A stretch of DNA of 64,000 bases from Burkholderiaceae bacterium (GTDB taxonomy: Bacteria; Pseudomonadota; Gammaproteobacteria; Burkholderiales; Burkholderiaceae_C), in the NCBI GenBank assembly GCA_031253955.1, contig JAIRVJ010000128.1, positions 1 to 64,000 on the forward strand, given 5' to 3'. A program made the translations under genes and the position numbers. Shown in pieces: positions 14,145 to 63,467 of this stretch. How positions within the stretch are numbered: position 1 is the first letter of the stretch; each line of letters begins with the position of its first letter. The notes under the pieces were generated by a model that searched no databases, was not told where the DNA came from, and saw only the letters and a list, made by a program, of their open reading frames with translations.

Positions 14145-14234
14145 AATTGATAGCTGACTGCCAAGGTATAATATATGTTTTCTCATATTTTATATCACAA
14201 ATACATACAAAACTTTGGCAATTAGCTATCAAAT
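14145..14234. repeat. Repeat D, copy 1
   Basis: This 90-bp AT-rich element is bounded by AATTGATAGCT and AGCTATCAAAT (10 of 11 bases match as an inverted pair). A second internal pair, TGCCAA and TTTGGCA, suggests a long imperfect hairpin. It contains TATAAT-like strings, so it could also affect transcription of lolA. Confidence 0.8.
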
Positions 14235-23744: not shown

Positions 23745-23897
23745 GTCAAAAATCGTTCACGCTTGCGCGGTTTTCCTCCCTCTCCCACGAGTGGGAGAAG
23801 GTTGGGGAGAGGGCCAGCGGCGCTGGTTGGAGTCACAACGCTTGTGCCGCGCACCCCCTCTCCCTAACCCTCTCTCCCAAGGGGGAGAGGGAACCAT
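23745..23897. repeat. Repeats A/E, partial composite with two inverted hairpins
   Basis: After TTGCGCGGTTTTCC the block holds the hairpin CTCTCCCACGAGTGGGAGA with GTTGGGGAGAGGG. It then passes through GGCGCTGG and ends with the inverse arrangement CCTCTCCCTAACCCTC and CTCCCAAGGGGGAG. This is the same module order as the composites at 13155 and 29288 but lacks their outer ends. It separates the DUF3106 and RDD genes and could form strong RNA stems. Confidence 0.7.
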
Positions 23898-27700: not shown

Positions 27701-28318
27701 ATGTTCACCGGCATCATCACCGCCGTCGGCCGTATCGCCCACGTGCGCGATCTGGGCGCGGGCAGCGCGCACGGCAAGCGGCTGACGCTGCAAGCGCCCG
27801 CGGGCTATCTGGCCGATGCGCAGCCGGGCGAAAGCATCGCCATCAACGGCGCTTGCATGACCGTCACGGAGTTAGACGCACCCGCCGGGCGCTTTGCGGT
27901 GGACGTTTCCGCCGAATCGCTGGCGCGCACCGCCGGTCTGGATCGCTCCGGCCCGGTGAATCTGGAACGTGCACTGCGCGCCAGCGACCGGCTGGGCGGG
28001 CACATCGTCTCCGGTCACGTCGATGGCGTGGGCGCGGTTACGTGCATGGCGCCGGTGGGCGAAAGCTGGCTGCTGGCCGTGCAAGCGCCGCGCGAGCTGG
28101 GCAAGTTCCTGGCCTACAAAGGCTCCATCGCCGTCAACGGCGTGAGCCTGACGGTCAATCAAGTCACCGATACCGCCGACGGCGCGGAAATTCGCATCAA
28201 CCTCATCCCGCATACCGTGCAAAACACCGCCCTGCACACGCTGGCCGCGGGCGCGCGGGTGAATCTGGAAATCGACCTGATCGCCCGCTACGTGGAAAGA
28301 ATGCTCGCTTTCCCGTAG
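27701..28318 (+). CDS. ribE: Riboflavin synthase, alpha chain
   Basis: This enzyme dismutates two 6,7-dimethyl-8-ribityllumazine molecules to riboflavin. The 205-residue protein has two lumazine-binding repeats (about 1–95 and 96–190), starting with the diagnostic MFTGIITAVG and containing GGHIVSGHVDGVG and IAVNGVSLTV. AAGG ten bases upstream supports ATG 27701. Its TAG stop is part of GTAGGGG, the left end of repeat B at 28315. The convergent ogt gene ends in the other arm of that repeat. No FMN riboswitch is visible. Confidence 0.96.
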   Translation: MFTGIITAVGRIAHVRDLGAGSAHGKRLTLQAPAGYLADAQPGESIAINGACMTVTELDAPAGRFAVDVSAESLARTAGLDRSGPVNLERALRASDRLGGHIVSGHVDGVGAVTCMAPVGESWLLAVQAPRELGKFLAYKGSIAVNGVSLTVNQVTDTADGAEIRINLIPHTVQNTALHTLAAGARVNLEIDLIARYVERMLAFP

Positions 28319-28405
28319 GGGTGCAAAATCTTTCGCCCTGCAGCGCCTCATTCTCAAAGCGCCGTTTTTCGTTCACCGCAAGGGCGAAAAATTTTTCGCC
28401 CCTAC
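28315..28405. repeat. Repeat B, long form, copy 1 (supplies stop codons of ribE and ogt)
   Basis: This 91-bp element begins GTAGGGGTGCAAAATCTTTC and ends GGGCGAAAAATTTTTCGCCC then CTAC. Its left TAG (28316–28318) is the ribE stop, and its right CTA (28402–28404) is, inverted, the ogt TAG stop. An inner GCGCC…GGCGC-like pair adds structure. The same ~90-bp form recurs at 63379–63467. Confidence 0.85.
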
Positions 28406-29127: not shown

Positions 29128-29192
29128 GCGTCCTTCCAGCCTCCGGCTGGCCCTCTCCCCAACCCTCTCCCACGAGTGGGAGAGGGAGAAAA
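29128..29192. repeat. Repeat A, isolated copy
   Basis: The stem-loop CAGCCTCCGGCTG is followed by GCCCTCTCCCCAACCCTCTC and CCACGAGTGGGAGAGGG. This is the same two-hairpin plan as the copies inside waaA and the outer-membrane efflux gene, in the waaA orientation. Confidence 0.8.
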
Positions 29193-36800: not shown

Positions 36801-37017
36801 GACGCTGATGATGGCGTTTTCAGCCTGCATCGGCCTGCTGCCCGCCGCCCTGTCCACCGGCATCGGCAGCCAGGTGCAGCGGCCGCTGGCTACCGTAGTG
36901 GTGGGCGGCATGCTGCTAGGCCCCATCATGCTGCTGATCGTGGCCCCGGCCTTGCAGGTGATGATGGTGCAGTGGTCGCTGCGGCGCAAGGAACGCCGTT
37001 TGGGAGCGGCGTCATGA
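33832..37017 (+). CDS. Heavy-metal-type (HME) RND efflux pump, CzcA/CnrA-like
   Basis: The 1061-residue proton-driven inner-membrane pump has the RND repeat layout: helix 1, large periplasmic domain (40–330), helices 2–6, helix 7, second periplasmic domain, helices 8–12. Helix 4 carries DFGIIVDSAVILIEN, with acidic residues Asp395, Asp401 and Glu408. This is close to the HME1 signature of Zn/Co/Cd/Ni pumps and unlike the drug-exporting HAE pattern. The start is GTG 33832, 31 bases after the adaptor. Its stop overlaps the ATG of the outer-membrane factor as ATGA. Confidence 0.94.
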   Translation: MFRGLLAFALSRRSIVLMALAAFAVGGLVAYGKLNIEAYPNPAPVILEITAQAPGLSAEEMERSYTRPMEVGLATTPGVDTIRSTSFYGLSFVRVTFRYGVDYTLAYTQAALNLQQNVSLPDGVQPQIQASSLVGEIYRYQLIGPPHLSLTDLRTLQDWVVTRRLLSVSGVAQVVTWGGTTKEYEVEADARKLQGYNITLPQLIAAIANANTNVGGRTVNIGQQSVNIRGVGLIRDTQDIGNIVLTQTGGTPVLVKDVARVFVGATPRLGKAGRDDADDVVTGIVVMNRTMQTNEVLGRVKDEIEKLNHDGTLPAGVQAVPFYDRASLVNVTTQTVLHNLIFGCLLVFLIQWMFLGDLRSAIIVSANIPVALLFAIIILVLTGESANLLSLGAVDFGIIVDSAVILIENIFRNFQKPLAEREQLLNDQAQRSFGMYEQGGIAYGWPKRLRLLFTSAIEVDRAVLFSTAIMVAAFIPLFTMQGVEGQIFGPMARTYAYALTGALIATFTVTPVLASLLLPEHVAETETVFVRAIRRVYSPVLRWALRRRKTTVALGGAFLLVAALLLPRIGTEFLPALEEGNLWIRATMPVTISLEASMDKASRMRQIVKSHPEVMTVVSQHGRPDDGSDAAGFYNLELFAPLKPREQWPAGHTKEALVSALQKQLEGEFPGVEFNFSQYIQDNIQEGLSGVKGANSVKIIGPDLAELEKLAAQVLHEITQVKGVQDAGVFSVLGQPNLNITIDRAKAARHGLNTGDINAVVQAAAGGTTATTVLEDDRQFDLVVRLAPRYRSDVRAIGDIAVGTSAPSGATAYVPLRELAAISLDTGASYIYHERNERFIPVKFSVRGRDLGSTVQEAQARIARHVTLPAGYHLAWAGEFDSMRQAAQRLAVALPVAILLILALLYTLYGSVRDSLLTLAAIPFSIAGGIIALYVSGLNLSVSAGIGFISLFGVSVMSGILVISWFNHLLFAGRTAVDAMTLAAEERMRPTLMMAFSACIGLLPAALSTGIGSQVQRPLATVVVGGMLLGPIMLLIVAPALQVMMVQWSLRRKERRLGAAS

Positions 37018-38537
37018 GCGGTTTTGTTTTTCTCCCTCTCCCGCTTGCGGGAGAGGGTTGGGGAGAGGGCCAGCCGAAGGCTGGCAGGCGCTTGTTTTTG
37101 CGCTGCTGGCCCACGCTCGCCATCGCCCTGGCCGCCCTCGCCGGCTGCGCCGTAGGCCCCGACTACCAGCGCCCCGAAACCCCCGCTCCGGCCCAATTCA
37201 CCCGCCAGCCGCTGGCGGCGACCAAGGGCAGCGAGCACGGCCCGGCGCAGCAGTGGTCGCCCGGCGCATCCATCAGCCAGACCTGGTGGCAAATGTTCGG
37301 CTCGCCTGCGCTCGATACCCGCGTGGAGCGCGCATTGGCCCATAACCCCGATCTGCAAGCGGCCACCGCCGCCCTGCTGCAAGCGCGGGAAAACGTCGCG
37401 GCCCAGCGCGCCGCGTTCTTTCCCACGGCGCAGCTTGGCTACACGCCGTCGCGCCAGCGCGAGGCGGTGGGCACGCTCTCGCCCAGCCTGGAGTCGGGCG
37501 CGGCAATTTACACGCTGCACACCGCCCAACTCACCATCAGCTACGCCCCCGACGTGTTCGGGCTGAACCGCCGCACGGTGGAAGCGCTCGCGGCGCAGGC
37601 CGATAACCAGCGTTATCAGCTTGAAGCGGCGCGGTTGACCCTGGCCACCAATGTGGTCAACGCCAGCATCGAGGAAGCCGCGTTGCGCGCGCAGATCGAG
37701 GCCATCCAGGCCGTCATTGACGCGCAAACGCACGCGCTGGCGATCCTGCACGATCAGTTTCGCCTGGGCCACGCATCAGCCTTGGACGTGGCCGCGCAGG
37801 AAGGCGCGCTGGCGCAGGCGCGGCAAGCCCTGCCGCCTTTGGAAAAACAGTTGCAGCAAAACCGCGACCTGCTGGCAATTTTGTGCGGCGACACGCCCGA
37901 TCAGGCCGGCGCGCCGCAGTTCGATCTGGAGCATTTCACCCTGCCGGTCACGCTGCCGCAAGGCGTGCCCTCGCAACTGGTCACGCAGCGTCCCGACGTG
38001 CGCGCCGCCGAAGAAAACGTGCGCGCCGCCAGCGCCCAGGTCGGCGTGGCCGTGGCCAACCGCCTGCCCCAGTTCACCTTGCAGGGCGCTTACGGTGGCA
38101 GTTCCACGGCGTTTGCCCGCATGTTCGCCGCCGACAACCTGTTCTGGTCCCTGGCCGGCAGCGTCAGCCAGACCCTGCTGGACTTCGGCGCGCTCGCGCA
38201 CCAGCAGCGCGCCGCCGAAGCGGCCTTGCGGCAGGCGGCGGCGCAATACCGCGGCGCGGTGCTCGCGGCATTCCAGAACGTGGCCGATGCGCTCTACGCC
38301 ATCGACGCCGACGCCCATGCGCTGGCCGCCGCCGATGACGCCGAACGCGCCGCCGCGCGCACGCTGGAACTTACCGGCAAGCAGCAGCAACTGGGCTACG
38401 TCGATGCGCTCACCCTCATCAACGCGCAGCAGGCGTACCAGCAAGCGCGCGTCGCCCGCATCCAGGCCCAAGCCGCGCGCCTGAGCGACACGGCGGCGCT
38501 GATCCAGGCGCTGGGCGGTGGCTGGCAGGATTCGTGA
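37014..38537 (+). CDS. Outer-membrane efflux lipoprotein, NodT/CusC type, with repeat-encoded N-terminus
   Basis: The 507-residue TolC-like channel has the family features LAGCAVGPDYQRPE (lipobox Cys45), WWQMFGSPALD, two halves of coiled-coil hairpins (ALAHNPDLQAATAALLQARE and LRQAAAQYRGAVLAAFQNVA) and QRPDVRAAEENVRAA. The ATG at 37014 overlaps the pump stop. Residues 4–24 (FVFLPLPLAGEGWGEGQPKA region) are the in-frame translation of a repeat A copy at 37024–37085, placed before the signal peptide. If translation instead begins at an in-frame TTG (37092 or 37098), the repeat would be untranslated. Metal-efflux partner of the preceding two genes. Confidence 0.9.
   Translation: MSGFVFLPLPLAGEGWGEGQPKAGRRLFLRCWPTLAIALAALAGCAVGPDYQRPETPAPAQFTRQPLAATKGSEHGPAQQWSPGASISQTWWQMFGSPALDTRVERALAHNPDLQAATAALLQARENVAAQRAAFFPTAQLGYTPSRQREAVGTLSPSLESGAAIYTLHTAQLTISYAPDVFGLNRRTVEALAAQADNQRYQLEAARLTLATNVVNASIEEAALRAQIEAIQAVIDAQTHALAILHDQFRLGHASALDVAAQEGALAQARQALPPLEKQLQQNRDLLAILCGDTPDQAGAPQFDLEHFTLPVTLPQGVPSQLVTQRPDVRAAEENVRAASAQVGVAVANRLPQFTLQGAYGGSSTAFARMFAADNLFWSLAGSVSQTLLDFGALAHQQRAAEAALRQAAAQYRGAVLAAFQNVADALYAIDADAHALAAADDAERAAARTLELTGKQQQLGYVDALTLINAQQAYQQARVARIQAQAARLSDTAALIQALGGGWQDS
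37024..37085. repeat. Repeat A inside the 5' end of the outer-membrane efflux gene
   Basis: Hairpin 1 is CCCTCTCCCGC/GCGGGAGAGGG (37034–37044 and 37047–37057, perfect 11 bp, TT loop). Hairpin 2 is CCAGCC/GGCTGG (37070–37084, GAA loop), with GTTGGGGAGAGGG between. The block is in frame with the gene and adds no stop codon. Confidence 0.85.
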
Positions 38538-38684: not shown

Positions 38685-40031
38685 ATGATCGGCGCTTTGT
38701 ACGACCTGGCCATTTGGGCGGCGCAGCCGCTGTTGCGGAGCAAATTGCGCCGCCGTGGGCGGGCCGAGCCAGGATATCTGCACGCGGTGGAAGAACGCTT
38801 TGGGCATTACACGCAGCCCCGCCAGCCTTCGGCTGCCCCTCTCCCCACCCCTCTCCCGCAAGCGGGAGAGGGAGCAAACGCCAATCCGCATGATGGGCAG
38901 CCGCTGATCTGGATCCACGCCGTCTCGCTAGGCGAAACGCGCGCGGCGGCCATCCTGCTCCACGAATTGCGCGCGCGCTGGCCGCAGATGCGCCTGCTGC
39001 TCACGCACGGCACGGCCACCGGGCGGGCCGAAGGCGGCAAGCTGCTGCGCGCGGGCGACGTGCAGGTCTGGCAGCCGTGGGATACGCCCGCCGCCACGCG
39101 GCGCTTTTACGCGCACTTTAGGCCCGACGCGGGCGTGCTGATGGAAACCGAAATCTGGCCGAACCTGATCGGCGAAGGCCGACGCGCGGGCGTGCCTATT
39201 GTTCTTGCCAATGCGCGCTTGTCGGAAAAATCCCTGCGCGGCGCGCGGCGCGCGGCGGCTGTGTTGCGCCCGGCTTACGCGGCCTTGTCTGCCGTGTGGG
39301 CGCAAACCGAGGCCGACGCCGCCCGCCTGCACCAGGCCGGAGCGCACGGCGTGGCCGTGCTCGGCAACCTGAAATTCGACGCCGCGCCCGACGCCACCGC
39401 CGTCGCGCGGGGGCAGGCTTGGCGCGCGCGGTGCGGCAAGCCCGTCGTCATGCTCGCCAGTTCGCGCGAAGGCGAAGAAGTCATGCTGCTGCAAGCCCTG
39501 CGCGCCCAGCCGCCGCGCCTGCCCATCCAGTGGCTGATCGTGCCGCGCCACCCGCAGCGGTTTGACGCCGTGGCCGATTTGATTGGCACGGCGGGCTGGC
39601 CCGTGAGCCGCCGCAGCGGGTGGGCCGATGACGCGCCACCAGCCGATGCCGCCAACGCTATTTGGCTGGGCGACAGCCTGGGTGAAATGGCCGCCTGGTA
39701 CACGCTGGCCGACGCCGCGCTGCTGGGCGGCAGCTTCGCGCCGCTGGGCGGGCAGAACCTGATTGAAGCGGCGGCCTGCGGCTGCCCGGTGCTCATGGGG
39801 CCGCACACCTACAACTTCGACGAGGCCGCCCACCTGGCGCTGCAAGCAAACGCCGCGCTGCGCGCAGCCGGCATGGCCGACGCCGTGGCGCAAACCGCCG
39901 CCCTGCTGCAAGAGCGCGCGCAACACACCGCCATGACGCAAGCGGCCCGCGCCTTTGCCGCCAGCCAGCGCGGCGCAGCGCAACGCATGGCCGGGGCGCT
40001 GGCGCGGTTGCCTGGCATTGCGCGTTCGTAG
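38685..40031 (+). CDS. waaA: 3-deoxy-D-manno-octulosonic acid (Kdo) transferase, with in-frame repeat insertion
   Basis: WaaA adds Kdo to lipid A precursor at the inner-membrane face. The 448-residue GT-B enzyme starts with a membrane-associated helix (MIGALYDLAIWAAQPLL). Family motifs are WIHAVSLGE (catalytic Glu84), METEIWPN, LGNLKFD and the nucleotide-binding GQNLIEAAACGCPVLMGPHTYNF. Residues about 45–70, between ERFGHY and PLIWIHAVSLGE, are the translation of a repeat A copy, which explains a length about 20 residues above usual. The insertion precedes the active site and keeps the frame. The TAG stop is the start of a repeat B copy. Confidence 0.93.
   Translation: MIGALYDLAIWAAQPLLRSKLRRRGRAEPGYLHAVEERFGHYTQPRQPSAAPLPTPLPQAGEGANANPHDGQPLIWIHAVSLGETRAAAILLHELRARWPQMRLLLTHGTATGRAEGGKLLRAGDVQVWQPWDTPAATRRFYAHFRPDAGVLMETEIWPNLIGEGRRAGVPIVLANARLSEKSLRGARRAAAVLRPAYAALSAVWAQTEADAARLHQAGAHGVAVLGNLKFDAAPDATAVARGQAWRARCGKPVVMLASSREGEEVMLLQALRAQPPRLPIQWLIVPRHPQRFDAVADLIGTAGWPVSRRSGWADDAPPADAANAIWLGDSLGEMAAWYTLADAALLGGSFAPLGGQNLIEAAACGCPVLMGPHTYNFDEAAHLALQANAALRAAGMADAVAQTAALLQERAQHTAMTQAARAFAASQRGAAQRMAGALARLPGIARS
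38821..38873. repeat. Repeat A inserted in frame within waaA
   Basis: Hairpin CAGCC/GGCTG (38823–38835) is followed by CCCTCTCCCGC/GCGGGAGAGGG (38849–38859 and 38862–38872, AA loop). The 11-bp stem is identical to that of the copy at 37034, in reverse module order. It encodes a Pro/Ala/Gly-rich stretch with PLPQAGEG. Confidence 0.88.
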
Positions 40032-40055
40032 GGGCGGAAAATTTTTTGCCCTTAC
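40028..40055. repeat. Repeat B, short form (supplies the waaA stop)
   Basis: This imperfect 28-bp palindrome GTAGGGGCGGAAAATTTTTT plus GCCCTTAC carries the TAG stop of waaA at 40029–40031. It can also fold as a terminator-like hairpin. Confidence 0.8.
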
Positions 40056-40066
40056 GCTACGCTAGA

Positions 40067-40160
40067 TTTTCTATAGCTTGATACCTTGATTTATATTTTA
40101 TTTACCAGTATTTTATATGCCAAATATATACAATAAATTGGCTTAAAGCTCTCAAATTGA
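40067..40160. repeat. Repeat D, copy 5
   Basis: This AT-rich 94-bp element runs from TTTTCTATAGCTTGATA to AAAGCTCTCAAATT, with internal TTTACCAGTATTTTATAT. Ends are diverged (AGCTCTCAA instead of AGCTATCAA) but the plan is the same as in the other copies. Confidence 0.65.
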
Positions 40161-40180
40161 GAGTTACCACTTTCAAACGC

Positions 40181-40329
40181 CAAGGCGATCGCATCTAAAT
40201 TCCATGAGTTGAATTTCGACGCGACAAATAACACTTGTGCCGTCGTAGGGGCGAAAAATTTTTCGCCCCTACATCCGTGCTCCATCGCCAACTGGTTGAT
40301 TCTTAAGAAATTCAGATGCGATCGCCCTG
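40181..40329. mobile_element. MITE-like element with 23-bp inverted ends and 10-bp flanking repeats
   Basis: The left end CAAGGCGATCGCATCTAAAT and the right end, inverted, CAGGGCGATCGCATCTGAAT agree over a 23-bp span with three mismatches. TTTCAAACGC is repeated directly on both sides (40171–40180 and 40330–40339), as a target duplication would be. The interior is 100 bp and contains a perfect repeat B palindrome at 40245–40272. No coding capacity. The flanking sequence resembles repeat C, so it likely inserted into a C copy. Confidence 0.7.
40245..40272. repeat. Repeat B, short form, perfect palindrome
   Basis: A perfect 28-bp palindrome, GTAGGGGCGAAAAA and its exact inverse. It lies inside the MITE-like element 40181–40329. 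Confidence 0.85.
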
Positions 40330-63378: not shown

Positions 63379-63467
63379 GTAGGGGCGAAAAATCTTTCGC
63401 CCTGCGGCGTTTCGTTCAAAACGGCGTGATTTTTTGGGCACAAGGACGAAAATTTTTTCGCCCCTAC
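63379..63467. repeat. Repeat B, long form, copy 2
   Basis: This 89-bp element runs from GTAGGGGCGAAAAATCTTTC to GGACGAAAATTTTTTCGCCC then CTAC. Same plan as 28315–28405, but not at a stop codon. The rest of the gap up to 63565 is a repeat C-like string (ACGTTCAACTCTCAACGTTC). Confidence 0.8.

Follow-up and report, generated by a model that had tools for sequence, protein, structure and literature searches.

Upstream of the codons for its catalytic motif, the waaA (kdtA) gene of this Burkholderiaceae genome contains a palindromic segment whose stem also occurs elsewhere in the genome. The question is whether a dispersed repeat has entered a working Kdo transferase gene in frame, what kind of repeat it is, and how the enzyme has accommodated it. 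We analysed the window, that is, the whole stretch of 64,000 nucleotides containing waaA, as well as the genome it comes from and genomes of related species.

The waaA coding span (38685-40028, forward strand) encodes 448 amino acids and is followed by a stop codon. Its product, an essential enzyme of lipopolysaccharide synthesis, matches PF04413 (E-value 9.4e-60) and retains the conserved glutamate of the HAVSLGE motif. The sequence-only reading had placed a complete two-hairpin repeat in frame within this gene, and both parts of this claim hold. The main 24-nt perfect hairpin reads CCCTCTCCC-GCAAGC-GGGAGAGGG, and the small accessory hairpin is the counterpart of a GGCC-rich spacer found beside other copies. 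Both appear in the DNA fold of the region (-15.9 kcal/mol, z -3.59). The waaA copy is a singlet with an accessory hairpin, not a doublet. The reading frame is open throughout the repeat, and the element itself is free of stop codons in all six frames. The inserted segment encodes approximately QPSAAPLPTPLPQAGEGAN. The coordinates are collected in the table.

Table. Coordinates of waaA, the repeat within it, and further elements in the window and in one relative.
Feature	Position	Strand	Basis
waaA (kdtA), Kdo transferase, in-frame insert included	38685..40031	+	PF04413, NCBIfam, AlphaFold2 match
Inserted segment, limits approximate: accessory hairpin, boxC unit and GCAAA edge	38820..38878	.	empty-site alignment; family consensus with TTTTCT edge
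36-nt boxC/TM_ECO unit, CCCTCTCCC-GCTTGC-GGGAGAGGG-GTG-GGGAGAGGG	38837..38872	-	exact consensus match
Main palindrome, 9-bp stem and loop	38849..38872	.	pattern search, DNA fold
Small accessory hairpin, CAGCCTTCGGCTG	38823..38835	.	dispersed family D4, DNA fold, family consensus
Second exact boxC unit, 5' end of the upstream OEP lipoprotein reading frame	37034..37069	+	pattern search
Third exact boxC unit; no ORF spans the hairpin with 30 aa on both sides	29151..29186	-	pattern search
Inverted doublet, REPIN-like arrangement	23778..23891	.	
uvrC repeat of relative G024 (L280)	G024:C208:41148-41336		

An alignment with WaaA of relatives had been named in advance as the comparison that could refute an insertion, and it did not do so. 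The empty-site alignment of waaA took in five genomes (G022, G024, G004, G002, G027). The nearest relatives without the segment are G022 (WaaA 82% identical) and G024 (79% identical). Their linkers read ERFGHYVQPRPAADAAQGQPLIWIHAVSLGET and ERFGHYTQPRPESDTAQGRPLIWIHAVSLGET, respectively, versus ERFGHYTQPRQPSAAPLPTPLPQAGEGANANPHDGQPLIWIHAVSLGET in the window genome, a net gain of 51 nt, or 17 residues, in the latter. The repeat peptide is likewise lacking in the WaaA linker of 79 of the 80 relatives retrieved by database search. Given these relatives, the possibility that the residues are ancestral was rejected. The insertion thus stands, with 17 net residues rather than the approximately 20 proposed earlier; it does precede Glu84, the glutamate of the HAVSLGE motif, which lies about 14 residues downstream of the insert rather than immediately after it. 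No target-site duplication could be read at waaA because the linker is too divergent.

The sole exception among the 80 loci (L056) belongs to the sister species G021, which has a different insert of its own: a doublet in the same linker, adding 84 nt and lying in another reading frame. In the WaaA tree, G021 groups with the insert-free G022 (support 96/83) inside a fully supported clade that also contains the window genome and G024. A single inherited insertion common to G021 and the window genome is not favoured, since G021 pairs with G022 and has an insert of different composition and frame. Two independent insertions into the waaA linker are the simplest reading of these sequences.

The 36-nt unit in waaA and two other units of the window fit the boxC/TM_ECO consensus CCCTCNCCC-N3-6-GGGNGAGGG-N3-GGGNGAGGG exactly (three occurrences versus 0.00 in shuffled sequences). 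Many further sites in the genome have the identical 24-nt hairpin, in agreement with the earlier claim of a stem common to other copies. The strict hairpin of this type (type A) was found at 63 sites in the 2.6-Mb genome versus none for the reversed control, and a sister subfamily with the CCYTCCCCC stem (type B) at about 240 sites, again with no control matches. Locally, the consensus reads TTTTCT-CCCTCTCCCGCTTGCGGGAGAGGG-TTGGGGAGAGGG, after which comes a GGCC-rich hairpin. Two hairpins are present in 100 of the 168 clustered elements, and opposite-strand pairs are about 63 nt apart. The repeat is therefore REP-like: a short palindrome with many dispersed copies, mainly in inverted doublets. 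The tetranucleotides GTAG/CGTC, as read, were found near none of the 31 type-A and none of the 44 type-B units, and the complement GACG near one unit of each set. Judging by the consensus match, the repeat carries a candidate intrastrand-triplex motif of the boxC type; the structure folded here is that of the hairpin.

The second boxC unit of the window lies just ahead of the signal peptide in the OEP lipoprotein frame (36972-38534); it may belong to the 5' untranslated region or decorate the N-terminus. The window contains further dispersed repeats. Another palindrome, GTAGGGGCGAAAAATTTTTCGCCCCTAC-like, occurs in spacers at 28305-28405, 40018-40272 (after waaA) and 63416-63467. AT-rich repeats of 47-58 nt with GCTATCAAAT-like ends, at 14188, 21946, 25503, 29645, 40111, 43612 and 63203, stand out against the 65% GC genome.

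Other coding sequences were surveyed in 623 kb of the window genome sampled around repeats, and host genes were identified by Pfam and NCBIfam. Many ORFs spanning a repeat proved to be 5' read-through frames (RseB, T2SS protein K, TamA, Ung), so that such ORFs could not all be counted as decorated and a two-sided test was needed; an element was accepted only if the sequences before and after it had a coding signal in one common frame. By this test 14 of the 168 sampled elements count as in-frame insertions, distributed over 13 genes: mfd, uvrC, a uvrA-family gene, mutL, hrpA (two), rluC, glnD, aceF, aroC, metH, waaA, a NirDL-like fusion and an ABC transporter. PLPxAGEG peptides had been expected in other coding sequences, and were found in many genes. 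Alignments to solved structures of Mfd, UvrC and UvrA are interrupted where the inserts lie, and the UvrC and MutL inserts are also visible as gaps against relatives. In samples from three further members of the genus, 3 of 17 (G019), 3 of 14 (G014) and 1 of 25 (G001) elements passed the test; these are upper bounds, as the hosts were taken without a family check and some look spurious.

The insert of UvrC amounts to about 50 residues relative to its relatives and lies in a loop ahead of MPDLVLIDGG. In G024, the same loop contains a repeat of about 160 nt that belongs to another family, with 43 matches in that genome including the uvrC copy; an insert common to G024 and the window genome was therefore rejected. 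In both the waaA linker and the uvrC loop, two species have distinct inserts at one site, which points to a filter of tolerance. The great majority of elements lie outside conserved frames, as expected if most insertions into coding sequence are removed. The uvrA-family host was rejected as the canonical UvrA, being part of a larger paralogue whose open frames measure about 1500-2350 aa in the genus; contig C7 carries a second UvrA-like gene. Linkers of this paralogue (L326-L350) are variable near query residues 505-550 and 890. The linkers of the ABC transporter, AroC and the NirDL-like protein also hold SFPRRRESI- and DSRLRGNDE-like residues (L148:2-1858, L198:1675-3099, L278:1-3327). Apparently these stem from a further repeat family, and tolerant linkers gather repeats of several kinds.

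An AlphaFold2 model of WaaA, built with 34 sequences, has a mean pLDDT of 90.8 and falls below 50 in one segment only, residues 57-69, a stretch inside the insert or at its edge. Its best match among solved structures is WaaA of Aquifex aeolicus (2xci, E-value 2e-18). The model shows an intact predicted fold in which the insert alone is disordered, as a putative loop between the helix 35-39 and the strand 74-78, ahead of the Glu84 motif.

The repeat is dispersed, close relatives lack it at this site, it lies in frame, and the parts of the gene on either side of it are conserved as protein. Very probably, this is a tolerated in-frame insertion of a boxC-type repeat. On this reading, the flexible linker that joins the N-terminal anchor region to the catalytic HAVSLGE motif would have received a copy of a boxC-type REP, a short mobile palindrome with an intrastrand-triplex motif. 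With a net length that is a multiple of three, the insert would become a short disordered loop rich in proline, glycine and glutamate (PLPTPLPQAGEG), because the GC-rich repeat is stop-free in six frames, and the enzyme would still fold. The copies now seen in frame would be survivors of selection against harmful insertions, located in linkers and loops since insertions elsewhere would be lost. Most likely the waaA insert is selfish and tolerated; we do not think that the peptide has a function in WaaA.

The likeliest source of mobility would be a REP-associated tyrosine transposase (RAYT) acting on the single-stranded hairpin. The genome contains two such genes recognised by NCBIfam, one on contig C13 (NF047646, 188.8 bits) and one on C153 (88.4 bits). 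A type-B REP is located about 130 bp from the first and 177 bp from the second. This concerns two genes in one genome and type-B copies rather than the waaA type. In five other members of the genus with RAYT-like genes, no such repeat occurs within 1.5 kb of them, and thus the link is suggestive only. We consider the chances that the repeat is mobilised in this way to be evenly balanced. On contig C1 of G027 there are about 20 matches to Y1 transposases, several identical and some split into two frames, which suggests that this relative holds an active IS200-like element.

The insert might instead lie outside the working protein, if waaA were a pseudogene or if translation restarted past the repeat. 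The NCBIfam WaaA models indeed match (E-value 6.8e-141) with a score of 469.9, below the strict cutoff of 524. However, the gene has no stops or frameshifts, and the part preceding the insert has few amino acid changes, with a pN/pS of 0.17 against G022 and a range of 0.13-0.43 for its conserved stretch, over 29 codons only. Invariant columns among 34 WaaA relatives flank the insert on both sides, from Glu28 to Tyr42 and from Trp76 onward. For the gene with the linker excluded, pN/pS against G022 is 0.24, similar to pairs without the window genome, and these substitution patterns point to continuing purifying selection on waaA. A dead or restarting gene is therefore very improbable, and we infer that translation runs through the insert. 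A misjoin induced by the repeat in a metagenome contig is hardly credible. The genome is fragmented (167 contigs, 4.8% contamination), and repeats do cause misjoins, but the sequence on either side of the insert comes from one gene and matches relatives in order and frame, the two-sided coding signal recurs in 12 other genes, and independent assemblies of other species show inserts of the same kind.

It has also to be considered whether the insert is co-opted, with the PLPxAGEG loop or the DNA/RNA hairpin regulating WaaA (by translation pausing, mRNA stability or as a binding loop) and kept by selection. Two observations agree with this. The PLPxAGEG frame (frame b) is used by 17 of the 26 in-frame hairpins versus one third expected (p 8e-4 if hairpins are independent, which within doublets they are not), with the three frames open about equally often (0.60-0.73). 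Further, DNA-repair genes recur as hosts: they make up 4 of the 13 (Mfd, UvrC, MutL and, as a paralogue of such a gene, the uvrA-family one), with a binomial p of 1e-4 to 1.4e-3 in a post hoc comparison that assumes a background of 2-4% and ignores gene length, and a similar bias has been reported for other REP families (PMC3733652). On the other hand, even the closest relatives do not share the waaA insert, the insert of G021 having a different sequence and frame; the frame bias is explained simply by avoidance of Arg- or Cys-rich peptides, the hairpins of one element being non-independent; and the hosts have no function in common. Co-option in waaA is therefore unlikely. A related idea is that RAYT-mobilised boxC/triplex repeats repeatedly enter repair proteins because altered repair benefits the element or the host, so that the decoration would be selected and not merely tolerated; this we regard as quite unlikely. 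The preferred reading remains a selfish insertion that the enzyme tolerates.

Among known systems, the closest in sequence is the boxC/PIT/TM_ECO intrastrand-triplex motif, with 3610 occurrences in 262 proteobacterial genomes (PMC4666352). The repeats described here share with the E. coli motif the exact consensus, the 3-nt loop between G-rich arms, and closely spaced inverted pairs. However, the 23 copies of E. coli K-12 are all intergenic, and no mobility genes were found to accompany the E. coli motif (PMC4666352), whereas here the waaA copy and 13 other sampled elements lie inside reading frames, and RAYT genes adjoin related type-B copies. The predominance of inverted doublets and the presence of RAYT genes in the genome are as in REPINs (PMC3116915). 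Unlike here, where copies occur in frame in genes, REPs of P. fluorescens SBW25 are overwhelmingly extragenic (14 of 1,067 16-mers overlap genes; PMC3116915), and in the present case the link between RAYT genes and repeats comes from two genes in a single genome.

In behaviour, the elements, which lie in frame in unrelated genes and are missing in relatives, resemble the Rickettsia palindromic elements (RPEs), likewise in-frame palindromic repeats in unrelated proteins; the analogy drawn from the sequence alone is thus apt, although the taxon is different. The same reading knew of no such description for this family. In-frame REPs in proteins of several bacteria outside Rickettsia have in fact been known since 2013, tagged with GTAG/CGTC, over half of them in dimers or groups and adding 20-30 aa (PMC3733652). 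Their hosts are often DNA-repair genes, uvrA among them, but RNA helicases and pseudouridine synthases occur as well. Two related species have a REP insertion at about the same site of recB, and RPE-4 and RPE-6 correspond to intragenic R. conorii repeats of the CGTC type (PMC3733652). The present repeats share the in-frame position and the repair-gene hosts but lack the GTAG/CGTC tag and carry the triplex motif. What stands of the novelty is the family: no report of boxC-type repeats inside proteins was found in the open-access literature.

The observations imply that boxC-type triplex repeats can propagate within coding sequence and become part of essential enzymes. The preference for DNA-repair hosts, described in 2013 and still unexplained, is seen here for a second time and in another repeat family. 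The genus offers natural before-and-after pairs of empty and filled sites for testing how proteins absorb selfish DNA, and in annotation PLPxAGEG-like peptides in conserved proteins flag translated repeats. This kind of event is rare but already known from RPEs and GTAG/CGTC REPs, and the boxC-type family in proteins is clearly a new case of it.
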